Positions 43,870-60,888 of a stretch of DNA of 64,000 nt are shown here, in pieces. The stretch's first letter is position 1; each line of letters opens with the position of its first letter. The DNA is from Bacteroides helcogenes P 36-108. Its GTDB lineage: Bacteria; Bacteroidota; Bacteroidia; Bacteroidales; Bacteroidaceae. The stretch covers positions 2,046,001 to 2,110,000 of the forward strand of contig NC_014933.1 of the NCBI RefSeq assembly GCF_000186225.1, given 5' to 3'. The translations under genes and the position numbers were made by a program. The notes under the pieces were generated by a model. That model was given only the letters and a program-made list of their open reading frames with translations. It ran no database searches and had not been told where the DNA came from.

Positions 43870-43896
43870 TACGAGGAACAATAATCGTTGAGACCT

Positions 43897-46782
43897 ATGA
43901 AAAATCACATAGCGCACATTTATCTTTTTCTTCTTTTTCTCCTTCCTTCTGTTGAGTCATCTGCCGGCTGGAACAGTTTTATTGTCAACTTCGACAAGAG
44001 CTTGTACGGCAGGGGAGCGCAGACTTGGCAGATTGCCCCTTACAATGACAAGTGGGTGTATTTTGCCAACAAGAACGGCATGTTGCAGTTTGACGGCAAT
44101 GTCTGGAGCGTTCTCCCGTTGAATAATTTGTCGGATGTGCGTTCCGTTCTGCCTTCGGCCACTCAGAAACGCATTTATGTAGGTGGAATCAATGAATTCG
44201 GATATTATGAACCTGAGACAGACGGAGCGTTAGGCTACCATTGCATGTCCGACACGCTTGACGGATCGTTTCGCTATCTTGGAAATGTATGGGGTATCCA
44301 TGAAGGAGACAATATAGTATATTTCCAGGGAGACAGCCGTGTGGTGAAGTGCATCAACGGGAAATATTCAGTCATAGAGATGGATGGTAAGATTGATTGT
44401 TCCAACATGGTGAATGGAGTCCTTTATATCGGTACGGACAGGGGAGTGTGGCTCTTGGTGGGAAGTACGTTTTTCCCTTTACAGGGAGCCGATATACTGA
44501 TCTCCAAACGTATCAGGGGTATTGCGCCCTACAAGAAAGGCGTGTTGGTGGTGACGGCTTATGACGGGTTGTATTATTGTGATGGACGCACCACGGTTCC
44601 ATTGTCCACCAATGCGGAGATTTTCATGCGTGAGAATGAGGTTTTCTGTGTGGCGACGCAGGGCGATAAGATAGCCTTGGGAACTATACACAAGGGACTG
44701 GTTATGATAGATTTGAACACGATGGAACTGAAATATTTCAATGAAAACAACGGCTTGCGCAACAATACGGTCCTTTCTGTTGCTTTTGATCCTTCGGGCA
44801 ACCTTTGGGCAGGCTTGGACAGTGGCATCGATTATGTGTATCTCACTTCTCCCTTTACCAATCTTTATTCTTATCCCTATTCTTATGGAACCGGATATAC
44901 AGCAGCGGCATCGGACGGGTATCTTTATTTGGGAACTAACCGTGGGCTGTATTATACATCCTATCCGGTAAAAATGAATGGAAATCTGCCGGATATTCGT
45001 CCTGTTTCCAATTCCAGCGGGCAGGTGTGGAATTTGTGTCGAGTGGGAGATGAGCTTTTCTGCCTGCACGACCGTGGCATCTTTCTGCTTCAAGGTACGG
45101 GGATGAGGCGTGTCACAGATCTTTCGGGCGTGTGGAACTGCCAGCAAGTGATGGGGCGGCCGAATTTGATGTATGTCGGTGCATATAGCGGCATTTATCT
45201 GCTGGGCAGAAAGGATGGAGAGTGGCGTGTTCTTTGCAAGATAGAAGGTATGAGCGATTCTTGCCAACTTTTTGAGCAGGAATCGGCACGTGTGATATGG
45301 GTTTGTAATGCAGATCATGTCACCCGTCTGGAATTGAATACCGCATTGACCAGAGTGGACAACAGCAGGGAGTATTGGGCGAAAGACGGTTTGCCTGCGG
45401 ATAGAGACATGCACGTGGTTAAAATAGAAGGGCGCGTCTATTTCGGTACTTCCCGTGGCGTGTATAAATACAATCTTCCCAAAGATATAATAGAGCCTTG
45501 CCCAGACATGAACAATCTGCTGAACGGCACGTCGGCTTATACACGGCTGACAGAATATCATGGCAAGCTCATCAGTCTGAGCGCCCATGAAGTTTGCATT
45601 GCCAATCTGGGGACTTATAAGCGAGGATCCAATACGGGCATTTATCCCGTGCAACAGTCGTTGATGGAGATGGTTCCCGGTTTTGAGGCCATCATTCCCT
45701 TGTCCGATTCTCTTATGGTCATTCCCAATGAAGACGGTTTTGCTTTGTTCAGTCTCCAAGAAAGCCCCGAACGGCGTGATCGCAGCCATTCCCTATATAT
45801 AAAGAATATGTATCTTTCTTACCCCAAAGATTCCTTAGTATATACCGCCAACTTCCTGGGGCAGAAGCCTGTTCCCCAAATAGCCTATTCGTTGAACTCC
45901 GTACGCATAGAGTATGGTCTTCCCTATTTCACGATGGGTGACGGTGTCTGCTTCCAGTATCGGCTGAACAAAGGTGGCTGGTCAGATTTCACCACCGTGC
46001 GCACTAAAGAATACAGCAATTTGTCCGAAGGCGAATACGTCTTCGAGGTGAAAGCCGTTTTTCCGGACGGAACTACTTCGTCGGACGAGATTGTTTTCCG
46101 TATTCTTCCTCCGTGGTATCGTAGCGCTCCGGCTTACATTTGTTATATCGTTCTGGCATTATTGGCGCTTTGGTATCTTTACCGCTGGGACGATATGCGT
46201 GTCAGCCGCAAGAAGCAGCAGGCAGTGGTGGAAAAAGACAAGGAACTGCATAATATGGAGAAAGAATACGAAGAGGAGAAAGCCCGTCAGGAAAAGCAGA
46301 TCATCCAATTGGAAAAGGAAAAGCTTGAGTATGACTTGCAGCACAAGAGCCAGGAAATGACAAACCTGATGATAAACTTTGTCCGCAAGAATGAAATGCT
46401 GACCGAAATAAAATCGGAGATACTCAGGGTTTCCGCCACGTTGAAGGGAGAGGGGGCTCGTGAAGGGAAACAACAGTTGATACTTATCAACAGTAAAATA
46501 GATAGTAATATCCAAAGTGATGAGGTGCTGAAGCGTATAGAAGACCAGTTTGACCTTATTCATAATAATTTTATGAAACGTCTTCAAGCCAAGCATCCCG
46601 ACCTTTCCAATAATGAGCGCATGATGTGCGCTTATCTCAAAATGAACCTTTCTACCAAGGAAATCTCACCTTTGCTGAACATTTCTATCCGTGGTGTGGA
46701 AACTATTCGTTACCGTCTCCGCAAGAAATTCGGGCTGGAACGCGAGGACAACTTGACGGAGTATTTGAATAACAAGCTTTGA
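43897..46782 (+). CDS. PUL sensor-regulator: periplasmic propeller, Y_Y_Y, TM, LuxR-type HTH
   Basis: About 961 residues from the ATG at 43897 (a TTG at 43888 is in frame). A signal peptide is followed by about 14 short blade repeats forming sensor propellers (for example GTDRGVWLL, GTNRGLYY), a Y_Y_Y domain near 650-740 and one membrane segment near 750. A long coiled coil (EKDKELHNMEKEYEEEKARQ) leads to a LuxR-type HTH at the C-terminus (STKEISPLLNISIRGVETIR). There is no kinase or receiver domain, unlike true hybrid two-component regulators. It probably binds a glycan fragment in the periplasm and activates the neighbouring susCD genes directly. Confidence 0.88.
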   Translation: MKNHIAHIYLFLLFLLPSVESSAGWNSFIVNFDKSLYGRGAQTWQIAPYNDKWVYFANKNGMLQFDGNVWSVLPLNNLSDVRSVLPSATQKRIYVGGINEFGYYEPETDGALGYHCMSDTLDGSFRYLGNVWGIHEGDNIVYFQGDSRVVKCINGKYSVIEMDGKIDCSNMVNGVLYIGTDRGVWLLVGSTFFPLQGADILISKRIRGIAPYKKGVLVVTAYDGLYYCDGRTTVPLSTNAEIFMRENEVFCVATQGDKIALGTIHKGLVMIDLNTMELKYFNENNGLRNNTVLSVAFDPSGNLWAGLDSGIDYVYLTSPFTNLYSYPYSYGTGYTAAASDGYLYLGTNRGLYYTSYPVKMNGNLPDIRPVSNSSGQVWNLCRVGDELFCLHDRGIFLLQGTGMRRVTDLSGVWNCQQVMGRPNLMYVGAYSGIYLLGRKDGEWRVLCKIEGMSDSCQLFEQESARVIWVCNADHVTRLELNTALTRVDNSREYWAKDGLPADRDMHVVKIEGRVYFGTSRGVYKYNLPKDIIEPCPDMNNLLNGTSAYTRLTEYHGKLISLSAHEVCIANLGTYKRGSNTGIYPVQQSLMEMVPGFEAIIPLSDSLMVIPNEDGFALFSLQESPERRDRSHSLYIKNMYLSYPKDSLVYTANFLGQKPVPQIAYSLNSVRIEYGLPYFTMGDGVCFQYRLNKGGWSDFTTVRTKEYSNLSEGEYVFEVKAVFPDGTTSSDEIVFRILPPWYRSAPAYICYIVLALLALWYLYRWDDMRVSRKKQQAVVEKDKELHNMEKEYEEEKARQEKQIIQLEKEKLEYDLQHKSQEMTNLMINFVRKNEMLTEIKSEILRVSATLKGEGAREGKQQLILINSKIDSNIQSDEVLKRIEDQFDLIHNNFMKRLQAKHPDLSNNERMMCAYLKMNLSTKEISPLLNISIRGVETIRYRLRKKFGLEREDNLTEYLNNKL

Positions 46783-47042: not shown

Positions 47043-47142
47043 TTGACGTATTTCCTAAAAGTATTATATATATATTGATTTTCTGATGTTTATGTTGTGA
47101 TGGCGTATTGTTGACGTATTCATTTTCTTTATTTGACGTATT
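47043..47142 (+). promoter_or_regulatory. Repeated TTGACGTATT elements upstream of susC
   Basis: TTGACGTATT occurs exactly at 47043-47052, 47111-47120 and 47133-47142, and TGGCGTATT at 47101-47109. The last three are spaced about 10 and 22 bp apart, one and two turns of the helix, so they lie on one face of the DNA. They end 40 bp upstream of the -7 box. They are candidate binding sites for the upstream LuxR-type regulator. The rest of the 46783-47212 gap is AT-rich and shows no gene. Confidence 0.65.
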
Positions 47143-47182
47143 AATGAATACTATCTTTTATATATTTGAATGCTTCTTATTG

Positions 47183-47209
47183 TATGTTTGCACCGTTCAA
47201 TTGTGAACG
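47183..47209 (+). promoter_or_regulatory. -7 box and leader hairpin of susC
   Basis: TATGTTTG at 47183-47190 matches TAnnTTTG; no good -33 box lies 19-20 bp upstream, which fits an activator-dependent promoter. A small palindrome, CGTTCA-ATTG-TGAACG, at 47194-47209 covers the probable transcript start. Confidence 0.6.
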
Positions 47210-47245
47210 AGAATGAGAATAGTTAATCTTAATTTAGTAAAACTT

Positions 47246-50200
47246 ATGAAAAAGTTATTATCGGTTTTATTTTTATTAAGCTTTACCTTGGCTTCTGTGT
47301 ATGCCCAAAATATACAGGTAAAAGGTACAGTGGTAAGCGGATCGGATAACGAACCTTTACCCGGTGTTAATGTGGTGGAAAAAGGCAATGCCACCAATGG
47401 TGCAATTACCGACCTGGATGGTAATTTCACAGTGTCGGTTCCTGCGAACGCAACACTTTCTATTACTTATATTGGTTTTAAGCCGCAAGACATTGCTTTG
47501 AATGGAAGAAAAACACTCAAGATTGTTCTTCAAGAAGATTCTGAAGCACTGGATGAAGTAGTGGTAGTAGGTTATGGTGTTCAGAAAAAGAGTGTAGTAA
47601 CAGCGTCTATTGCCAAAGTAGGTGCTGATGAGTTGGCTATTTCTGCTCCGGTACGTGTAGATAATGCTTTGAAAGGTTTGGCTGCCGGTGTACAAGTGAC
47701 GGCTGCTTCCGGTCAACCGGGTGAAGCATCTCGAATTCGTATTCGTGGCGTTGGTACAGTGAATAACTCTGACCCTCTTTACATTGTAGATGGTATGCCT
47801 ATTGATGGTGGCATTGATTATTTGAATCCTAATGATATTCAGTCTATTGAGGTGTTGAAAGATGCTGCATCTGGCGCTGTTTATGGTGCGCGTGCTGCCA
47901 ATGGTGTTGTACTGGTAACTACAAAGGGAGGTAAAATTGGTAAAACAAAAGTTACTTATGACTTTTCTATGGGATTTCAAAGCCCATGGAAACATCGTGA
48001 AGTGCTTGACGCCACTCAGTATGCTATCATGCGCAATGAAGCTTCTATGAATGATGGTACTGGCATGGTATATGCTGATCCTTATTCTTATGGTAAGGGA
48101 ACTGACTGGCAAAAGGAAGTTTTTAATGATAATGCCCCTGTTGTACAGCATCAAGTGAGTGCCAGTGGTGCTACTGATAAGTTGAATTACTACCTTTCTT
48201 TAGGATATTATGAACAAGAAGGTATTGTAGGAGGTAATTATGATCGTTCAAATTATCGTCGTATGACAATGCGTTCTAATACTAATTATACGATGTTTGA
48301 TGTTTCTAAAGAACGTTCTTGGTTGAATAAGTTGACAGTTGGTGTGAACTTGGCTTATTCTCGCATTAAGAGTAAATCTATTGGAACTAATTCTGAAACA
48401 GGTTCTGTTTTAGGTAGTGCATTGTCGATTTCTCCTATTCTTAGCCCTTATATGTCTGAAGGGACAACTTTGAAAGATATGATTGCAGCAAATCCGTCTA
48501 TGGTTTTGTCTGACGGTACGGTGCTTTCTCCATTGCAAGCTTCTGACGGGAGATATTATACCATTCCTGGTGATAAATACAATGAAATCACCAATCCGTT
48601 GGCCAATCTGTCTTTGCCCGGTGCTTTGAATAATTCTGATAAATTTGTCGCTAATTTCTTTGCAGAATTGACACTGTGGGATTCCATTAAGTTTAAAAGT
48701 TCTTATGGGCAAGATCTTGCTTTTTGGGGAACTGATGGTTGGACCCCTGTTTATTATCTGTCTAAGCAAAATAAGGCGGAATATTCTTCAGTTTCTTCTG
48801 AAATGCATCGTGGCTCTGTGTGGCAGTTGGAGAATACGCTGTCATGGGATAAAACATTCGGGCAACATAGTTTCCAAGTTTTATTAGGCCAATCTGCCAA
48901 AAAAAGTACAGGACGCTATTTGAAAGGAAACAATCGTTATATGATAGAGGAGAGAGGCGATAAGGCGAATATTGATTTTACTACCGGTACTCAAAAAGCC
49001 GGTGATATGTATGTTGCCGGTAGCTTAAATAGTCCTTCAACAATCGCTTCTTACTTTGGTCGTTTGAGCTATAATTTTGCAGAACGTTATATGTTACAGT
49101 TAACCGTACGTCGTGATGGTTCTTCAAATTTTGGATCTAATAATAAATGGGCAACTTTCCCTTCTGTCTCTTTAGGCTGGAACTTGACTAATGAATCATT
49201 CATGAAAAATCGCCCTGCGTGGTTAACTTCAACAAAGGTTCGTGGATCTTGGGGTAAGAATGGTAATGAATCTATTGGTGCTTTTGGCTATGTAGCATTG
49301 ACTTCAAGTGGGAATAATCATTATTTTGGAAAGGGTGATGCAGGTCAAATAATTACTGGTACAAAACCGAGTGGGCTTTCAAATGCTGATTTAAAATGGG
49401 AGGAATCTGAACAGACTGATTTTGGTGTTGACTTTGGTTTCTTCAATAACGCATTGACTTTTACAGTAGATTATTTCTATAAGAAAACTAACGGTATGTT
49501 GAAGACGATGCCTATTCCTTCTTATGTTGGTGAATCCAAACCGACAGGTAACGTAGGTGATATGGAAAATCGTGGTTGGGAATTGGAAGCCAATTATAAG
49601 TTCCATGTCAGCGATTGGAATTTCCGCATAGGTGCAAATGCCAGTTATATAAAGAATAAGTTGATAAACTTGGGTAATGATTCAGGATTTGAAATGTCTG
49701 ATTATCTTGTTGGTGGTTTGTCCAATGTTACTCGTGCGGAGAATGGTTATGTTTATCCGTTCTTTTATGGTCGTGTAACAGATGGTATTTTTCAAAACTG
49801 GGCTGAAATAAATGCTTATGCTAAAGATGGAAAATTGATTCAACCAAATGCTCAGCCTGGTGATATTCGTTTTAAAGATTTGAATGACGATGGTAAGATT
49901 GATGATGATAATGATAAGGCTATGATTGGAAAGGGTATGCCGGATTGGACCTATGGCATTAATTTTCAAGCAAGTTGGAAAAACTTTGATTTCAGCATGA
50001 TGATTGCTGGTGCTATCGGTAATGATATTTTTGATGCAACCCGCCGTTGTGATATTGCTGAATTTAACCTTCCTAAATGGATATGGGAAAATCGTTGGAC
50101 AGGTGAAGGTACTTCTAATAATATGCCGCGTATGACAATCACTGATCCTAATGCAAGCTGGAGTTCTGCATCCGATCTTTATATTAAGGATGGTAGCTAT

Positions 50201-50425
50201 ATGCGTTTGAAAAACATTCAGTTAGGCTATACTTTACCCCAATGGCTGACCCAAAAAGTATTCGTTGATCGTCTTCGTGTTTATGTTGCTGCAGAGAATC
50301 TGTTGACTTTCACTAAGTACGATGGCTTGGATCCGGAAATAGCAAACGGTACTTCTATGGGACTTGATAAGGGTATTTACCCCCAAGCACGTGTATTTAC
50401 TTTTGGCTTGAATATTAGTTTCTAA
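47246..50425 (+). CDS. SusC-like TonB-dependent outer-membrane transporter
   Basis: About 1059 residues from the ATG at 47246, which opens a clear signal peptide (MKKLLSVLFLLSFTLASVYA); an in-frame ATG at 47213 would extend it. A carboxypeptidase-regulatory-like domain comes first (VKGTVVSGSDNEPLPGVNVV), then the plug with the SusC motif IRGVGTVNNSDPLYIVDGMP, and a 22-strand barrel ending in phenylalanine (FGLNISF). There is no STN signalling domain, consistent with control by the separate regulator. It imports oligosaccharides captured by the SusD-like lid, probably beta-glucan pieces. Confidence 0.96.
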   Translation: MKKLLSVLFLLSFTLASVYAQNIQVKGTVVSGSDNEPLPGVNVVEKGNATNGAITDLDGNFTVSVPANATLSITYIGFKPQDIALNGRKTLKIVLQEDSEALDEVVVVGYGVQKKSVVTASIAKVGADELAISAPVRVDNALKGLAAGVQVTAASGQPGEASRIRIRGVGTVNNSDPLYIVDGMPIDGGIDYLNPNDIQSIEVLKDAASGAVYGARAANGVVLVTTKGGKIGKTKVTYDFSMGFQSPWKHREVLDATQYAIMRNEASMNDGTGMVYADPYSYGKGTDWQKEVFNDNAPVVQHQVSASGATDKLNYYLSLGYYEQEGIVGGNYDRSNYRRMTMRSNTNYTMFDVSKERSWLNKLTVGVNLAYSRIKSKSIGTNSETGSVLGSALSISPILSPYMSEGTTLKDMIAANPSMVLSDGTVLSPLQASDGRYYTIPGDKYNEITNPLANLSLPGALNNSDKFVANFFAELTLWDSIKFKSSYGQDLAFWGTDGWTPVYYLSKQNKAEYSSVSSEMHRGSVWQLENTLSWDKTFGQHSFQVLLGQSAKKSTGRYLKGNNRYMIEERGDKANIDFTTGTQKAGDMYVAGSLNSPSTIASYFGRLSYNFAERYMLQLTVRRDGSSNFGSNNKWATFPSVSLGWNLTNESFMKNRPAWLTSTKVRGSWGKNGNESIGAFGYVALTSSGNNHYFGKGDAGQIITGTKPSGLSNADLKWEESEQTDFGVDFGFFNNALTFTVDYFYKKTNGMLKTMPIPSYVGESKPTGNVGDMENRGWELEANYKFHVSDWNFRIGANASYIKNKLINLGNDSGFEMSDYLVGGLSNVTRAENGYVYPFFYGRVTDGIFQNWAEINAYAKDGKLIQPNAQPGDIRFKDLNDDGKIDDDNDKAMIGKGMPDWTYGINFQASWKNFDFSMMIAGAIGNDIFDATRRCDIAEFNLPKWIWENRWTGEGTSNNMPRMTITDPNASWSSASDLYIKDGSYMRLKNIQLGYTLPQWLTQKVFVDRLRVYVAAENLLTFTKYDGLDPEIANGTSMGLDKGIYPQARVFTFGLNISF

Positions 50426-50443: not shown

Positions 50444-51970
50444 ATGAAAAAATATATAACTTTAGGAGGATTGGCACTTGCAGCTATGCTGGGAACCACC
50501 TCTTGTGGAGATGATTTTTTGACGGTACAGTCTTCAAATCAATTGTTTGTGGATGAGTATTATAACTCCGAAGCACGTATTTTTGAGGCCTTAGTAGCTG
50601 CTTATGACCCTTTAAATTGGTTAGACTACGCATGGGCATATACGAATTTAAGTATGACTTCCGATATAATGTCTGATGATGTATATGTAGGGGGTAGTGG
50701 TCCTACTGATCAAGGGGGACTTCATAAACAGTCTATTTTTGAAGCTACTCCTACTCAGCAGGTAGCGAGTGGCTTATGGTCAGCTCTCTATTCGGGAATT
50801 AACCGTAGTAATATTGTGCAGCAATATATGGGAGGTGCGACAGATATAAGTGATGCAAATCGTAAATTGTACCTTGCAGAGGCAAAGACGTTGCGTACAT
50901 TCTATTATGTTTGGTTATGGAAGTTTTGGGGAAATGTCCCTTATTACACAGAGAATTTGACTTATCCTTATTTGCATGAGCAGAATACCGCTGACCAAGT
51001 GTACGATGGTATTATCACTTCTTTGGAAGAAGTAATAACTGATAATATACTTCCAATGCGTCGTGAAGGTACAGAAATTGGTCGTGTAACACAAGCATTC
51101 GTCTATATGATGTATGCAGACTGTGTAATGTATCAGAAAGATGAGACTCGCTATACTAAAGCATTGGGCTATATGAAAGAAATTATCAGTTCTGGTAAAT
51201 ATAGTTTAACTCCTAATTATGCTGATATTTGGGAAGAATCAACTGGTGAATGGAACCAAGAATCTATCTTTGAGATTGAATATTTTAATAAAAATGGTGG
51301 TAGAGATTGGGGAAGTGCCATTGCTGATGGTGGTACTGTATATCCGAAACTGATAGGCATTAATAACTTGAATGGTAGTCCTGATTATGCTGGTGGTTGG
51401 GGATTTGAACCTGTTCGTCAAGAAGCTTATGATATGTTTGATGAATCTGATAAACGTAGGGATGCTTCGATTTTGAATTTTGCACATTATAAAATAGAAA
51501 ATCCAGATGCTTCTTATGTAGGACGTTATCAAGATACTGGAAACTTCCTTCGCAAATATTTGCCTCGTGTTGGTGGTAATGAAGGTGCTTCTGGAGCTGC
51601 TGATATGAACTATAACAATAATTGCCGTCTTTATCGTTATGCTGAAACCTTATTGAATGCTGCAGAACTCTCTCTCTTAACAAGTGGTGACGCACAGGGT
51701 TATTTAGATCAAGTTCGTACTCGTGCCGGTGTTCCCAGTATTTCTGCTACGATTGATAATATTCTGCAGGAACGCCATCTTGAATTTGTCGGTGAGGGTA
51801 AACGTTATTGGGATTTGGTACGTTCAGGAAAAGCTGCAACGGTTTTGGCTCCTGGTTCTACTCCTTATCGCCAGAAAGGGTGGAATGAAACGAAGAAATG
51901 GTTGCCGATACCACAAGGTGAAATAGATTCGGCTGGTGGTACTTTAGTTCAGAATCCTTATGCTGATTAA
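50444..51970 (+). CDS. SusD-like glycan-binding lipoprotein
   Basis: 508 residues with a lipoprotein signal ending TTSCGDDFL (Cys near 21). The TPR-rich SusD fold is shown by the early DYAWAYTNLSMTSDIMSDDV region and the C-terminal RHLEFVGEGKRYWDLVRSGK, a strong family signature. It caps SusC and binds the glycan at the cell surface. It starts 18 bp after susC. Length and motifs are normal. Confidence 0.96.
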   Translation: MKKYITLGGLALAAMLGTTSCGDDFLTVQSSNQLFVDEYYNSEARIFEALVAAYDPLNWLDYAWAYTNLSMTSDIMSDDVYVGGSGPTDQGGLHKQSIFEATPTQQVASGLWSALYSGINRSNIVQQYMGGATDISDANRKLYLAEAKTLRTFYYVWLWKFWGNVPYYTENLTYPYLHEQNTADQVYDGIITSLEEVITDNILPMRREGTEIGRVTQAFVYMMYADCVMYQKDETRYTKALGYMKEIISSGKYSLTPNYADIWEESTGEWNQESIFEIEYFNKNGGRDWGSAIADGGTVYPKLIGINNLNGSPDYAGGWGFEPVRQEAYDMFDESDKRRDASILNFAHYKIENPDASYVGRYQDTGNFLRKYLPRVGGNEGASGAADMNYNNNCRLYRYAETLLNAAELSLLTSGDAQGYLDQVRTRAGVPSISATIDNILQERHLEFVGEGKRYWDLVRSGKAATVLAPGSTPYRQKGWNETKKWLPIPQGEIDSAGGTLVQNPYAD

Positions 51971-51992
51971 TAACTTAATGAAATTAGAAATC

Positions 51993-53438
51993 ATGAAAAA
52001 GTCATACTTAAATATATTATGGGCATTAGTATTTCCTTTTATGTTGGGAAGTTGCTCTGAGGAAGATTATTCGGATGCGGATATAAATAATATCTCGACA
52101 TTGGATGGAATGGAAAATGCGGTCTCTGTGTCAGTGGATCAAGCAACAAATGTCGTAACATTTACGGTAGATGAGTCAACTCTAAAAGGCAACTATCCGG
52201 CATGGACATTTGGTACTGGTGCTACGGATGCTGCGACAAGTTCTACAAAATCAACTTTGACTAAGGCTTATAGCAAGCGTGGTGATTATACTGTAACTTT
52301 TCAACTTGGAAATAAAAATGGATTGAGTAAAGGGGTAATAACCAAGACATTTCATATTGAGAAAAATTTAATTCCTTCTGCTATTATTTCTTCATTGACA
52401 AAAGAAACCTTATATTGGAATTTTATGGCTAATGGACACTTTGGCTGTGGAGAATCTAATCCTTCCTTGGAGAATTACGGATTAGATTGGTGGTCATGTG
52501 CCGCAAATGGGAAAGGTGATACTGGCATGTATGATGATACATTCACTTTTAAAACCGAACAGACTTCGGGAACACTCATAGAAGGTACTTATGAATACAA
52601 TCCTGGTATAGATGGTTTGATTTATGTAAATGCAGGAGTTACTTTTGAGCCATTCGGGGCATTTAATCCGAATGATGGAAATGATTATGATGCTAAAGCC
52701 TCTAAACAAACTTCTACTTGGAAATTATATTATGATGATGCAGATGTACTTTGGCTGGAATTTGCACCGAAAACTCAAGTTGGCTTTGTAGCTAATGAGG
52801 GCGTTTGGAATACTCCGAAATTCAGAGTCTTGGAATTGACTGACAAAAAAATAGCTATGGTGGCAGACAATGGTTCTATTGCTTGGAAATATGTATTTTG
52901 CCCGAAAGATCAGAATGAAGTAGATGATATTGGCGCTGAAAAATATGCGGATGCTATTGTAGGTTCTTGGATGTGGAATTATACTGTAGATGGTCATTTT
53001 GGCTGTGGTGAAACTGTTGATAATCCTTTAGGCTGGTGGTCATGTGGTAGTAAGGGTAAAGATGGATTTGGTATGTATGATGATAAGATGACCTTTACAG
53101 AAGATTCTTATACGTTTGATCCTGGTGAAGAAGGTACTATCTTCTGCAATAAGGGATGTACTTACGATCCTACTTTGACAAATGATAAAGATGATTATGT
53201 AGCTAAAGTAAAGGATGGTGAAGTGCTGAAGACAACTTATCAAATAGTTGTTGAAGGTGGAAATCATTATTTGGTTCTTCCTGCTAAAACAATTTTCTCG
53301 TACATGCCAGCCGATGAAGTGTATGATTCTCCTAAATTCTTGATTAAACGTATTAGTAAGGATAAGTCTATTATGGAACTTGCTTCTATACAATCAGGTA
53401 TTTCTTGGTTGTACCAATTGAAAAGAACTGATAAATAA
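51993..53438 (+). CDS. Surface glycan-binding lipoprotein with internal duplication
   Basis: About 481 residues from the ATG at 51993, which gives a lipoprotein signal (MLGSCSEEDYSD); the frame opens at 51960 inside susD. A PKD-like N-terminal domain (about 45-125) is followed by two copies of a domain marked by NGHFGCGES...WWSCAANGKG...GMYDDTFTF and DGHFGCGET...WWSCGSKGKD...GMYDDKMTF. The position after susD is that of SusE/SGBP-B proteins, which bind polysaccharide at the surface. The aromatic WW pairs could form binding platforms. Confidence 0.85.
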   Translation: MKKSYLNILWALVFPFMLGSCSEEDYSDADINNISTLDGMENAVSVSVDQATNVVTFTVDESTLKGNYPAWTFGTGATDAATSSTKSTLTKAYSKRGDYTVTFQLGNKNGLSKGVITKTFHIEKNLIPSAIISSLTKETLYWNFMANGHFGCGESNPSLENYGLDWWSCAANGKGDTGMYDDTFTFKTEQTSGTLIEGTYEYNPGIDGLIYVNAGVTFEPFGAFNPNDGNDYDAKASKQTSTWKLYYDDADVLWLEFAPKTQVGFVANEGVWNTPKFRVLELTDKKIAMVADNGSIAWKYVFCPKDQNEVDDIGAEKYADAIVGSWMWNYTVDGHFGCGETVDNPLGWWSCGSKGKDGFGMYDDKMTFTEDSYTFDPGEEGTIFCNKGCTYDPTLTNDKDDYVAKVKDGEVLKTTYQIVVEGGNHYLVLPAKTIFSYMPADEVYDSPKFLIKRISKDKSIMELASIQSGISWLYQLKRTDK

Positions 53439-53448
53439 CAATTAATTT

Positions 53449-53498
53449 ATAGCCACTCTATCACTTTTCTGTAATTAATGTATGGAGTGGCTATTTTT
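53449..53498 (+). terminator. Hairpin between SGBP and GH16 genes
   Basis: ATAGCCACTC (53449-53458) and GAGTGGCTAT (53485-53494) pair across a 26-nt loop and are followed by TTTTAT. The hairpin lies within the operon and could lower expression of the enzymes relative to the binding proteins. Confidence 0.6.
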
Positions 53499-53509
53499 AT
53501 AAATGTGCT

Positions 53510-54613
53510 ATGAATAAATACTGGTTTTTAGGAATACTATTTATCTTGAATAGTTCAGCCTGTAGTAGCAGTGAAATGAATGAGAATATTCCTGATATAA
53601 TGATTGTAGTAACTCCCTCAGAGTTGACATTGGGCTGTGGAAAGGAAACTGTGGAAATAGAGGTGGATGCTTCTGCAGAGTTTGGGGTTATCTCTGATAA
53701 AGAATGGTGTACGTGTTTTCCTAAGGGAGGGCTGAAAGGGAAAAATAAGTTGAGTATTACTGTTGCTCGCAATTCTCAGGAAACAGAACGTTCTGCAGAA
53801 TTGACACTTGATGCAGGTACTTATAAGAAAACGATTATTGTTAAACAAGAAAAGATGTCTGGCATTACAATTCCCGACGGTTACGTACTTGTTTGGCAAG
53901 ATGAATTTGAGACTTCTCGTGATATAAATGGTAGAGCTGCTATGCCCAATATGGATGAGTGGTGGTATGAAACGGCAGCTCCCGGTTGGGTAAATAATGA
54001 ACTTCAGCGTTATGTGGCTGGTGTGTTAGATAATGATACTACTGCTTATATCTCAGATGGTACTTTGAAAATTATAGCAAAGAAAAAAGGCAATGAAGTT
54101 ATTTCTGCTCGGCTAAATACAATCAAAAGTTGGACTTATGGCTATTTCGAGGCTCGTTTGAGATTACCGAAAGGTAAAGGTACATGGCCAGCATATTGGA
54201 TGATGCCTAAAAACTTTAAGACTTGGCCTGACGACGGAGAAATTGATATAATGGAGGAAGTTGGGTATCATCCTAATTATGTGAGTTCTTCTATCCATTG
54301 CAAGGCTTACTATCATTCTATAGGAACGCAGAAAACAAAAGAACGTTATTTGGAAGGAGCAGAATCTGATTTCCATATATATGCTTTGGAGTGGACTGCG
54401 GATTTTATTAAAACCTATGTTGATGGCGAACTACTTTTTTCTTTTGAAAATGATAAAACAGGAAATAAAAGCACATGGCCTTTCAATACTCCTTTCGGTC
54501 TGAAGTTGAATCTTGCATGGGGTGGTGACTGGGGAGGAGCCCAAGGGGTAGATGTGTCTGCACTTCCTGCAACTTATGAAATAGACTATGTACGAGTGTT
54601 TCAGAAAAAATAA
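53510..54613 (+). CDS. GH16 endo-beta-glucanase with BACON-like domain, lipoprotein
   Basis: 367 residues. The signal peptide ends NSSACSSSE, giving a surface lipoprotein. A BACON-like domain (about 27-115) precedes a GH16 catalytic domain. The active site is EIDIME at 244-249, the beta-bulge form with Glu244 as nucleophile and Glu249 as acid/base, typical of laminarinases and lichenases. It should cut beta-1,3 or mixed-linkage beta-glucan at the surface for SusCD import. Confidence 0.92.
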   Translation: MNKYWFLGILFILNSSACSSSEMNENIPDIMIVVTPSELTLGCGKETVEIEVDASAEFGVISDKEWCTCFPKGGLKGKNKLSITVARNSQETERSAELTLDAGTYKKTIIVKQEKMSGITIPDGYVLVWQDEFETSRDINGRAAMPNMDEWWYETAAPGWVNNELQRYVAGVLDNDTTAYISDGTLKIIAKKKGNEVISARLNTIKSWTYGYFEARLRLPKGKGTWPAYWMMPKNFKTWPDDGEIDIMEEVGYHPNYVSSSIHCKAYYHSIGTQKTKERYLEGAESDFHIYALEWTADFIKTYVDGELLFSFENDKTGNKSTWPFNTPFGLKLNLAWGGDWGGAQGVDVSALPATYEIDYVRVFQKK

Positions 54614-54634
54614 ACCATAGGTATTGTTGAACCC

Positions 54635-56887
54635 ATGAAAATACAAAATATTTTATATATATATCTGTTGATGCTTCCTTTGGCTTCTTGTACGCATGTA
54701 TCAAATTCTGGAGGAGATGCAGTTATCGAACGGAAAATAGAGAATTTATTGTCAGATATGACCTTGGAGGAGAAACTGGGGCAGATGAACCAGATTTCTT
54801 CTTATGGAAACATCGAGGATATGATAGGACTGATAAAGAAAGGTGAAGTCGGTTCTATCCTGAATGAGGTAGACGCAGTGCGGGTGAATGCCTTGCAGCG
54901 TGTGGCGGTGGAGGAATCCCGTCTGGGCATTCCGTTGCTGATGGCGCGGGACGTGATTCACGGATTCAAGACCATCTTTCCTATCCCCTTGGGACAAGCG
55001 GCTACTTTCGACCCCGAAGTGGCTAAGGACGGTGCACGGATAGCGGCTATCGAAGCTTCGTCCGTAGGCGTTCGCTGGACGTTTGCTCCGATGATTGATA
55101 TTTCCCGTGACCCCCGTTGGGGACGTATTGCCGAGAGTTGTGGCGAGGATGTATATCTGTCTTCGGTGATGGGATCGGCTATGGTAAAAGGCTTTCAGGG
55201 AGATTCGCTGAACAGCCCCACCTCGATAGCGGCGTGTGCCAAGCACTTCGTAGGCTATGGTGCTGCGGAGGGTGGACGCGATTATAATTCTACTTTTATT
55301 TCGGAGCGTAGTCTGCGTAATGTTTACTTTCCACCCTTTGAAGCAGCAGCTAAGGCGGGGGTTGCTACGTTTATGACATCGTTCAATGATAACGACGGAG
55401 TGCCTTCTACCGGAAACAAGTTTATCCTGAAAGATGTATTGCGCGGTGAGTGGGGATTTGACGGACTGGTGGTGACCGACTGGAACTCTGCCCGCGAAAT
55501 GATAGCCCACGGATTTGCAGCCGATGATAAGGATGCAGCCACATTGGCGGTAAATGCCGGTGTGGATATGGAAATGGTGAGTTATGCTTTCTTTAAGAAT
55601 CTGCCGGAACAGATAAAGTCGGGGAAGGTGAAAGAAGAGGTGATAGACGAAGCCGTGAAGAATATACTGCGGGTGAAATTCCGTCTTGGTTTGTTCGATA
55701 ATCCGTATGTGGATGAGAAACGCCCGTCCGTGATGTATGATGAGTCTCATCTGGCTGCTGCCAAACGTGCTGCGGAAGAGTCTGTCATTCTGCTGAAGAA
55801 CGAGAGGGAAGTATTACCCTTGAAAGAGACGGTGCGTACGGTTGCCGTGGTGGGACCGATGGCAGATGCTCCCTACGAGCAGTTGGGCACTTGGGTTTTC
55901 GATGGCGAAAAATCTCATACGCAGACACCACTTGCCGCCATCAGGTCAATATATGGCGACAAGGTGCAGGTGGTTTATGAACCGGGCCTGACATATAGTC
56001 GCGACAAGAATGTGGCGGGTATTGCAAAGGCCGTTTCGGTCACGGCTCATGCCGATGTTGTTATTGCTTTTGTAGGTGAGGAAGCTATCTTGTCCGGTGA
56101 GGCACATAGCTTGGCGGACTTGAATCTGCAGGGTGCACAGAGCGAATTGATTGCTGCACTTGCAAAAACCGGGAAACCGTTGGTTACCGTGGTGATGGCG
56201 GGTCGCCAGCTTACTATCGGCAAGGAGGCGGAAGAGTCTGATGCTGTGTTATATTCATTCCATCCGGGAACGATGGGCGGTCCGGCAATTGCTGATTTGC
56301 TGTTTGGAAAGGCTGTGCCGAGTGGCAAGACTCCGGTCACTTTTCTGAAAGCGGTAGGGCAGATCCCTTTATATTATGCACACAATAATTCAGGAAGACC
56401 GGCATCTCTTAATTATAAGCCGTTGGAGGAAATCCCGGTAGAGGCAGGACAAACTTCTGAAGGAAGTTCTTCATCTTACATGGACGCAGGCGTTCAGCCT
56501 CTTTATCCGTTTGGATACGGATTGTCCTATACCACCTTTAAATACGGAAAGCCGAAGATTTCTTCCAGGGAGTTGTCTTCCAAAGATGTGTTGACTGTTG
56601 TCTTCGACTTGGAGAATACAGGCAGATATGAAGGTACTGAAGTGGTACAACTTTATGTACAAGATAAGGTTGCTTCGGTAACTCGTCCGGTAAAGGAACT
56701 GAAGCGCTTTACACGTGTCACTTTGAAGTCGGGTGAGAAAAAAACAGTGACTTTTGAACTTCCGGTCAGTGAACTTGCTTTCTGGAATATAGATATGATG
56801 AAGATAGTAGAGCCGGGAGATTTTGCTCTCTGGGTAGCGCCGGATAGTCAATCAGGAGAAGAAATTGGTTTTAGGGTTATAGATTGA
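54635..56887 (+). CDS. GH3 beta-glucosidase
   Basis: 750 residues with a lipoprotein-type signal (LPLASCTHVS). The (beta/alpha)8 domain carries the nucleophile Asp in VVTDWNSAREM (about residue 282) and KHFVGYGAAEGGRDY upstream; the second domain has the usual SGEAHSLADLNLQG loop with the likely acid/base Glu, and a fibronectin-III-like domain ends the protein. It trims imported glucan oligosaccharides to glucose, probably in the periplasm. Base composition is noticeably more GC-rich than in the four preceding genes. Confidence 0.94.
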   Translation: MKIQNILYIYLLMLPLASCTHVSNSGGDAVIERKIENLLSDMTLEEKLGQMNQISSYGNIEDMIGLIKKGEVGSILNEVDAVRVNALQRVAVEESRLGIPLLMARDVIHGFKTIFPIPLGQAATFDPEVAKDGARIAAIEASSVGVRWTFAPMIDISRDPRWGRIAESCGEDVYLSSVMGSAMVKGFQGDSLNSPTSIAACAKHFVGYGAAEGGRDYNSTFISERSLRNVYFPPFEAAAKAGVATFMTSFNDNDGVPSTGNKFILKDVLRGEWGFDGLVVTDWNSAREMIAHGFAADDKDAATLAVNAGVDMEMVSYAFFKNLPEQIKSGKVKEEVIDEAVKNILRVKFRLGLFDNPYVDEKRPSVMYDESHLAAAKRAAEESVILLKNEREVLPLKETVRTVAVVGPMADAPYEQLGTWVFDGEKSHTQTPLAAIRSIYGDKVQVVYEPGLTYSRDKNVAGIAKAVSVTAHADVVIAFVGEEAILSGEAHSLADLNLQGAQSELIAALAKTGKPLVTVVMAGRQLTIGKEAEESDAVLYSFHPGTMGGPAIADLLFGKAVPSGKTPVTFLKAVGQIPLYYAHNNSGRPASLNYKPLEEIPVEAGQTSEGSSSSYMDAGVQPLYPFGYGLSYTTFKYGKPKISSRELSSKDVLTVVFDLENTGRYEGTEVVQLYVQDKVASVTRPVKELKRFTRVTLKSGEKKTVTFELPVSELAFWNIDMMKIVEPGDFALWVAPDSQSGEEIGFRVID

Positions 56888-58833: not shown

Positions 58834-60888
58834 ATGATGATAAAACGTATATGTTGTTTTCTGCTTGCATTCTTGTTTTTCGGGAGTTTCTCTATAAAAG
58901 CTTCTAAAAAAGGTGATGTGGTGATAATGAAGCGGATAGACAGTCTTAAACTCTCTCTCTCAAGAAGTGCTTCTCTTGTTGAAAGGTTGCATGTCCTTTA
59001 TGATTTGTCTGCCTGTTATCGTGACGAGCAGGAAGAATGTGATTATTGTATGATGCTTTATTCGGAAGCGAGTAAAGTCGATTCCATTTTTTTGAAGGAA
59101 TATGCGGCAGTAACTCTTACCCGTTATTACTATAACAAGAATTTGATGGATAGCGTGGTTTATTGGAGTGGTCAGGTAAAGCGTATTGCCCAAGAACGCG
59201 GAAGCTATTCGGACCGATATTTTTTTGTCTGCAATTTGGCTTGTCAGTTCATTCTGTGGTATGATGTCAATGAGGAAGGTGCTAATGAGGCTATCCGGCT
59301 TTACCATTTGGCACAGAAAGAGAAAAACAAGACGGGAATATATTCTTGCTGTCAAACTATGGGAGTTGCTTATGTTGTCATGGGGCAAGACAGTATAGCT
59401 ATCAGCTACTATGAAGAAGGTATAAGGACGGTGCAGAGCATACAGCCTTTGCATTACAGCATCATGCAGTCAATGATGGAGTCATTATTGGAAGCTGCCC
59501 TCAGACTGCAGCGTCTTGACCTGGTTGAGAAATATCTAATGCAATATGAGAATTTGACAGAGGATATCGCCAAAGGGAAATACGGAGAGGATAAATATCC
59601 CATAGATCGTTGCCGATGGCTGGCAGATTGTTTTCGGTCTGATTATTATATTCTTCGGAACAACTTGGAGGAGGCACGTCGGTATATAGGCAAGGCTTCT
59701 GAATACGCTTCTTCGGTAGATGATATTTATGTCAAATATCGTTTCCATTTGTCTTGCGTGTATTATTATAAGGCTAAGCATGAATATATTACAGCCTTGG
59801 CTCATATGGATGAAGTGTTGAAGTTAGGTGATTCTACTGAATTGTTCATACTGAAGGGTGAGATTCTAATGCAGGAAGGGCGCGACAGAGAGGCTGCCGA
59901 ATGCTACCGGCTCGCTATACATAAAACGAAAGAAAAGGCTGACGCTTCTTTCATGCGTCAGATGACGCAGTTGGCGCATTTGCATGATATCAGCCAGGAG
60001 ACACAGGCTCATAATGAAGAAATTCTGAAAAGGAAACAATGGCAGCTTATCATGTTGCTGAGTAGTGCCTGCTTTTTTATGGCGTTGTTAGTGGTGGTCG
60101 TCATTTATACTTTGCGTGTCCGCCGTATGCGTAACAAGATGCGCATTGAACGTGACCGACTGATGGAATCAGAGAATCGGCTCAGTCTGGCCAGAGACAA
60201 AGCGGTAGAGTCCGATCGGCTGAAAAGCCTTTTTCTTGCGAACATGAGTCATGAAATCCGTACGCCGCTTAATGCGATCGTGGGATTTTCGCAACTCTTG
60301 TGCAGTCCCGAAGATATTGAAGTCTCCGAAGATGAGCGAAAGAGTTTCTCCGACCTCATTCTTCGTAATTCAGATTTACTGCTGAATCTGATCAACGACA
60401 TTCTCGATGTATCCAAACTGGAGGCCAATTCTTATCATTTTAACTTTGGGGAATGTGACGTCAACGAGTGTTGTCACACTTGTCTGGAAAGTGTACGTCA
60501 CCGGGTGGCTTCCGGAGTGCGGCTTACTTTCACTCCGCCACAGGAACACTTTTTGCTGAATACGGATAAGTTGAGGCTTGAGCAGGTGTTGATGAACTTG
60601 CTGACCAATGCCGCTAAATTTACGGAACAGGGTGAGATAAATGTATCTTATCAACCGGATGAAGAAAGCGGTTACGTGTGCTTCAGCGTGACGGACACCG
60701 GATGCGGAGTTCCTGAGGATAAACAGAAAGTAATCTTCAACCGGTTTGAAAAGCTGAATGATTATGTGCAGGGAACCGGTTTGGGACTGGCTATCTGCGC
60801 CCTGATTGTGAAGCAATTCGGAGGAACTGTCAAAGTGGACGGAAATTACAGACAGGGAGCGAGGTTTGTATTTACACATCGGTTGTAG
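58834..60888 (+). CDS. TPR-containing sensor histidine kinase
   Basis: 684 residues: a signal peptide (to about 24), a periplasmic TPR region (about 30-390), one membrane segment near 405-427, a short coiled coil, HisKA with NMSHEIRTPLNAIVGFSQLL (phospho-accepting His473) and HATPase_c with NLLTNAAKFT, DTGCGVPEDK and GTGLGLAICALI. No receiver domain is attached and no response regulator is adjacent, so its partner is elsewhere. The sensed signal is unknown. It looks intact. Confidence 0.92.
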   Translation: MMIKRICCFLLAFLFFGSFSIKASKKGDVVIMKRIDSLKLSLSRSASLVERLHVLYDLSACYRDEQEECDYCMMLYSEASKVDSIFLKEYAAVTLTRYYYNKNLMDSVVYWSGQVKRIAQERGSYSDRYFFVCNLACQFILWYDVNEEGANEAIRLYHLAQKEKNKTGIYSCCQTMGVAYVVMGQDSIAISYYEEGIRTVQSIQPLHYSIMQSMMESLLEAALRLQRLDLVEKYLMQYENLTEDIAKGKYGEDKYPIDRCRWLADCFRSDYYILRNNLEEARRYIGKASEYASSVDDIYVKYRFHLSCVYYYKAKHEYITALAHMDEVLKLGDSTELFILKGEILMQEGRDREAAECYRLAIHKTKEKADASFMRQMTQLAHLHDISQETQAHNEEILKRKQWQLIMLLSSACFFMALLVVVVIYTLRVRRMRNKMRIERDRLMESENRLSLARDKAVESDRLKSLFLANMSHEIRTPLNAIVGFSQLLCSPEDIEVSEDERKSFSDLILRNSDLLLNLINDILDVSKLEANSYHFNFGECDVNECCHTCLESVRHRVASGVRLTFTPPQEHFLLNTDKLRLEQVLMNLLTNAAKFTEQGEINVSYQPDEESGYVCFSVTDTGCGVPEDKQKVIFNRFEKLNDYVQGTGLGLAICALIVKQFGGTVKVDGNYRQGARFVFTHRL

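Follow-up and report, generated by a model that had tools for sequence, protein, structure and literature searches.

How is a Bacteroides transport operon switched on when its promoter lacks a −33 element, and which protein reads the short repeated words lying in front of it? The question is raised by a locus of Bacteroides helcogenes P 36-108 contained in a stretch of 64 kb (NC_014933.1, positions 2,046,001-2,110,000; hereafter the window), where the roughly 460 bp that separate a regulator gene from a susC-like gene hold an array of direct repeats of the word TTGACGTATT. The most probable answer, to which comparison of the sequences leads us to assign a probability of about 0.85, is that these repeats form the operator of the adjacent propeller/Y_Y_Y/LuxR-HTH regulator, which would activate the −33-less susC promoter.

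Among regulators of this kind SusR, found in the Sus PUL, was the first, and its mechanism is said in a 2019 paper to remain undefined (PMC6874557). In 2013 Ravcheev et al. predicted, for four SusR-like regulators, direct-repeat motifs whose centres are separated by 67 or 77 bp, and left them for experimental test; in the sections of that paper drawn on here, two sites and a non-conserved spacer are described, the distance being explained by protein size (PMC3878776). The statement made in an initial annotation of the window, that binding sites of one-component PUL regulators are little known, therefore holds only with the qualification that these predictions exist. A fixed and transferable operator plan would provide base-pair targets for footprinting, allow regulons to be predicted from sequence, link orphan regulators to distant PULs, and supply parts for glycan-inducible promoters in Bacteroides.

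The regulator and the beta-glucan locus

The regulator (43888..46782, plus strand; 964 aa) comprises, according to Pfam and predicted fold, a Reg_prop propeller, a Y_Y_Y domain, a membrane helix with coiled coil and a C-terminal LuxR/NarL-type HTH; no kinase or receiver domain is found by Pfam along its 964 aa, and the protein thus differs from an HTCS, defined by a histidine kinase, a receiver and an AraC-type HTH, also in the type of its DNA-binding domain. The susC-like transporter gene (47246..50425, plus strand) is the first of the operon and is followed on the same strand by genes for a SusD-like protein, a PKD surface protein, a GH16 and a GH3 enzyme (50444..56887). The same gene order (susC, susD, a second surface glycan-binding protein, GH16 and/or GH158, GH3) is found in the loci of B. 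uniformis, B. thetaiotaomicron and B. fluxus reported by Dejean et al. in 2020 to be strongly induced by laminarin (PMC7157763), and on the basis of this match the substrate, and the ligand of the regulator, would be a beta-1,3-glucan (oligosaccharide). In the sections of that paper drawn on here the regulator is called a hybrid two-component system; the window regulator, of which BACUNI_01490 may be the orthologue, is devoid of kinase and receiver. A TPR sensor histidine kinase is also encoded in the window (58834-60888); it carries HisKA and HATPase domains and, by Pfam, no receiver domain.

The LuxR-type HTH attributed to the regulator by the initial annotation gives only a weak sequence match to GerE (19.3 bits vs the Pfam cut-off of 23.5), and the attribution is upheld by structure prediction. 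In the model of the last 220 residues (mean pLDDT 86) a long helix and further helices precede a terminal four-helix HTH, which superposes on the DNA-binding domains of LiaR (rmsd 1.3 over 58 columns, TMt 0.76), ComA (TMt 0.82) and GerE (TMt 0.69); judged by this predicted fold, the C-terminal domain is a LuxR/NarL-type HTH. The Foldseek E-values of the whole 220-residue model are poor (all >0.03, the best being 0.04), and this may be put down to its long coiled coil. A 540-aa SusR-like protein of the same genome matches residues 762-962 of the regulator (E 1.5e-14), and the string RYRLRK is shared in their alignment (A2), while the sensor parts differ, being Reg_prop plus Y_Y_Y in the former and TPR repeats in the own-genome SusR-like protein.

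The repeat array and the promoter

The array begins on the plus strand with the distal box A (47043..47052), an exact copy of TTGACGTATT at offset D-90, and continues with box B (47100..47109), which reads ATGGCGTATT and has two mismatches to that word, and with the exact boxes C (47111..47120) and D (47133..47142), the successive steps A-B, B-C and C-D being 57, 11 and 22 bp. The three exact copies and the near copy already annotated are thus present as described, as is the correspondence of two of the gaps to one and two helical turns; the 57 bp between A and B would amount to whole 10.5-bp turns only in bent or twisted DNA. To these boxes can be added a weak box A' (TAAAAGTATT, 47056..47065, plus strand), lying 77 bp before D, a conserved element at 47076-47093, and the word GAAT at 47146..47149 (plus strand), 3 bp after box D. 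No further exact copy of TTGACGTATT occurs in the 64-kb window, and the whole 4-Mb genome contains 12, vs 8 of a reversed control word; the self-similarity of the trio formed by B, C and D was never matched in 200 shuffles.

The −7 promoter box TATGTTTG (47183..47190, plus strand), corresponding to the TAnnTTTG consensus (PMC7366714), lies 40 bp beyond the last repeat, which ends at 47142, in agreement with the initial annotation. Its start falls 50-52 bp after that of box D in 31/31 aligned rows; a second −7-like word, TATATTTG at 47161-47168, is not conserved. Compared with the primary-sigma promoter of Bacteroides (−7 TAnnTTTG, −33 TTTG), that of the window has the −7 element and lacks the −33 one, as had been noticed, and the same is true of its relatives: no conserved TTTG column is found 19-21 bp upstream of the −7 box across the 31 aligned rows.

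Conservation and fixed geometry

A relative of the regulator was found in 25/301 genomes by a family search, and the trio is carried by 14 of the 31 loci analysed from the own-genome and family searches; a scan of named genomes yielded 43 loci, 24 of them with the trio (≤7 mismatches in 30). Among the 19 trio-less loci of that scan, a susC-like neighbour, as judged from its N-terminus, is present only in L087, L089 and L090 (39-41% identity), the others having different neighbours or contig ends. Because these rows had been chosen by a fixed geometry, the geometry itself was tested on 59 regulator loci with 196 spacing pairs at ≤6 mismatches: the 11/22 spacing gives a trio in 36/59 loci, the runner-up spacing in 9. 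The conservation of the motif upstream of orthologous susC genes, proposed by the initial annotation as a check, is therefore found, and with fixed spacing.

A gapless alignment of 31 non-redundant rows, drawn from 38 arrays, gives a majority identity of 0.87 for box B, 0.86 for C and 0.94 for D, the best conserved box, vs 0.48-0.58 for the spacers; the distal boxes are more loosely conserved (0.61 and 0.65 for A and A'), even though the G at D-72 is kept in 26/31 rows. In L024, whose regulator is 34% identical overall, the same recognition helix, GVETIRYRLRKK, goes with the same kind of box. The GAAT word after D comes close to the boxes in conservation (G 27, A 29, A 29 and T 24 of 31) and is absent after B and C. 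The array also precedes genes other than susC: in a Prevotella MAG (L094; L095 is alike) a gene that weakly matches GH99, and in genome G374 (L166) a GH5 gene.

Co-occurrence of array and regulator

A profile built from sequence only (R1, 30 rows) was run on 149 Bacteroides genomes together with a search for the regulator, the thresholds being E<1e-4 for the array and at least 46% identity for the regulator. Both are present in 51 genomes, the regulator alone in 5, the array alone in 2 and neither in 91; the 51 comprise 37 linked and 14 unlinked cases (at least 269 kb apart or on different contigs), so that the table without the linked ones reads 14/5/2/91. Related genomes do not count as independent events: among the 14 unlinked ones, a group of eight and a group of three look like single clades, so that perhaps five events are represented. 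The unlinked arrays precede, in 14/14 cases, a susC accompanied by a GH16 gene and, in 11, also by a GH3 gene in the stretch examined, and among the 30 best R1 matches susC lies directly downstream in 29, the remaining one ending at a contig edge. The array tracks the regulator and not the susC lineage; indeed, the susC behind it is only about 34% identical to that of the window in G385, G316 and G363 (unlinked) and in G381 (linked), so that the array has moved between transport operons.

The exceptions are few. An array without a detected regulator occurs in G331, in front of a GH16/GH3 PUL, and in G374, where the GH5 gene is accompanied by a GH3-like gene; a regulator without a detected array occurs in G343, G305, G368, G390 and G414, four with a regulator of 46-51% identity and one an 83%-complete genome. 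L167 (G381:C88) has its regulator broken up into two overlapping frames, beside an intact array and the replaced susC. A DUF5686 gene upstream of the unlinked susC operons was considered as an alternative regulator and discarded, no DNA-binding domain being found in it by Pfam. Also abandoned was a one-residue code relating VETI→VETM in the recognition helix to GTAT→GTAG in box D: GTAG occurs in 4/4 linked loci with VETM and never with VETI, but the 3/3 unlinked VETM loci (L161-L163) have GTAT.

The two genomes carrying an array and no detected regulator are what would be expected if the boxes served another transcription factor encoded elsewhere, be it global, catabolite-type or ECF, the neighbouring regulator being incidental; this is improbable, given that R1 finds one site in the own genome, unlike what a global factor would have, that the array follows the regulator in the 14 genomes where the two are separated as well as where susC has been replaced, and that the boxes of paralogous regulators differ in letters while their offsets match. 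Far less credible still is that the locus as a whole is conserved through recent shared descent rather than for its function: the regulator and the array do lie side by side in 37 of the 51 co-occurring genomes, yet the spacers have fallen to about 50% majority identity where boxes B-D keep 86-94%, and the unlinked and susC-replaced cases also contradict it.

If the array is the operator of the neighbouring regulator, a periplasmic oligosaccharide would bind the propeller, the regulator would dimerise via its coiled coil, and the LuxR/NarL-type HTHs would occupy the direct repeats about whole helical turns apart (B, C and D at 0, 11 and 33 bp), recruiting RNA polymerase to the −33-less susC promoter from box D, which starts 50-52 bp upstream of the −7 box. 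The distal boxes A and A' lie beyond a putative IHF/HU-type site, and DNA bent at this site would fold them onto the proximal ones. Conservation, fixed geometry, the association with the regulator in cis and in trans and the single site in this genome are seen in the sequences; binding and activation and, with about even odds, bending are what we infer from them.

The central element and a possible DNA bend

Between the distal and the proximal boxes lies the central element TGATTTTCTGATGTTTAT (47076..47093, plus strand), which in the aligned loci of group I reads TGATTATCARTnnnTTAT, with A at D-49 and D-41 in 30/31 rows, and contains the IHF-type consensus WATCARNNNNTTR (taken from PMC9820253). 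The strict consensus does not occur in the window, where 47080-47092 has two mismatches to it; it occurs in 7/31 group I loci at one exact column (0.004 expected), in 7/21 SusR-like promoters (0.57 expected), in 3/17 of group II (0.65) and 1/20 of group III (0.58), and in 0/15 other own-genome susC promoters taken as controls. A matrix derived from group I alone finds the element in group II (combined p 8e-8, 17 promoters) and in group III (combined p 1e-5, 20 promoters), even if several group III promoters show no central element, and does not find it in the 15 other own-genome susC promoters (combined p 0.68).

That an IHF/HU-type bend joins the distal and the proximal boxes has, on these comparisons, about even odds, and the role of IHF is the weakest step of the proposed mechanism, the window's own element carrying two mismatches. 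Only slightly less probable is that there is no bend and that the element is touched by the regulator as an additional contact, or by the polymerase as an AT-rich one, a reading favoured by the minority of promoters in which the strict consensus is found, the window not being among them, and by literature searches in which no paper on IHF at Bacteroides PUL promoters was found. What speaks for a bend is the excess of strict matches at a single column of group I, the absence of the element from the 15 other promoters of the genome, and its recurrence where the letters of the boxes differ, which makes the variable recognition helix an unlikely reader of it; weak support also comes from the HU/IHF-family genes of the genome (16 matches, four of them strong).

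A possible wider operator plan among paralogues

Paralogues of the regulator also adjoin susC genes. In the group with 34% identity the box sequence is TTTGATGTAGT, with spacings of 33 and 66-67 bp in several promoters; the putative SusR boxes read TTTGTAGAT, and in a promoter of the 25%-identity class (L057) the word AAGTAGT recurs at 0, 11 and 33. The idea that every paralogue follows the 0/11/33 trio had to be given up, since most of 19 other promoters have no significant self-repeat (p 0.01 in L046, 0.055 in L057) and use different subsets of offsets; GTA[GT] words cluster near −27, +29, +40, +62 and +73 from the start of the central element.

These offsets were fixed before the SusR-like (short TPR-type) subfamily was examined. 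From 28 of its loci, five without a usable downstream ORF and two near-duplicates were set aside, and in some of the 21 promoters that remained the downstream ORF is other than susC. Within this set 40/55 GTA[GT] words fall within 2 bp of a predicted offset (10.0 expected, with a maximum of 21 in 5000 draws), or 37/51 when the own-genome copy, known before the prediction (L213, the same as L039), is excluded. The fit is 19/35 in group II (6.4 expected) and, at its poorest, 22/58 in group III (about 25% identity; 10.5 expected), the offsets having been partly read from these two groups; it is 4/5 in the window and 1/8 in the 15 control promoters. Since words within a subfamily share ancestry the p-values are optimistic, and more weight attaches to the consistency from one subfamily to another.

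It is tempting, though for the moment somewhat short of an even chance, to propose that the membrane-anchored SusR/propeller-LuxR regulators all share one operator plan, in which boxes with letters that vary with the HTH, at set offsets (−27, about +29, +40, +62 and +73, most of them 11 bp or multiples apart) surround an IHF/HU-type bend, and a U-turn of the DNA would let one membrane-tethered complex hold both distal and proximal boxes. If this were true, the long 67/77-bp spacing would be due to the U-turn and not to protein size.

Comparison with known operators

With an HTH homologous to that of the SusR-like regulators and repeats upstream of susC whose spacings, 68 bp for A-C and 77 bp for A'-D (A' being weak), fit the 67 or 77 bp predicted for them, the window resembles the SusR-like systems of PMC3878776, where direct repeats likewise precede susC operons and the regulators are membrane-anchored with a related C-terminal HTH. 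It differs from what the sections of that paper drawn on here describe in having three to five boxes, spaced by approximately helical turns, and a spacer that contains a conserved element; relative to those sections both features are new, the direct repeats as such having been predicted in 2013, and no paper reporting either was found in the open-access literature. Judged from sequence comparison, the window regulator is related to the SusR-like proteins in operator and HTH and is not a SusR orthologue. The HTCS operators of the same paper are also direct repeats upstream of susC, about 21 bp apart; as described there, they are pairs of sites for AraC-type phosphorelay regulators, whereas the window has a LuxR-type HTH, no phosphorelay and 11/22 steps. 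A different arrangement is seen upstream of a group III susC (L051), where direct repeats (TTAGACCTAAT and others) lie 81 bp apart, unlike the helical offsets.

The susC leader

Where the mRNA is expected to start lies an inverted repeat, CGTTCA-ATTG-TGAACG (47194..47209, plus strand). A stem-loop can be formed in most of the 31 aligned loci, a few lacking it (e.g. L018-L020 and L094), and because its arms change together across loci (GTTC/GAAC, GTTCC/GGAAC, GTCC/GGAC, GCTC/GAGC) the covariation suggests a conserved RNA hairpin in the leader. Further downstream, at about 47220-47240, the word GTTAATCTTAATTTA is common to many group I loci.
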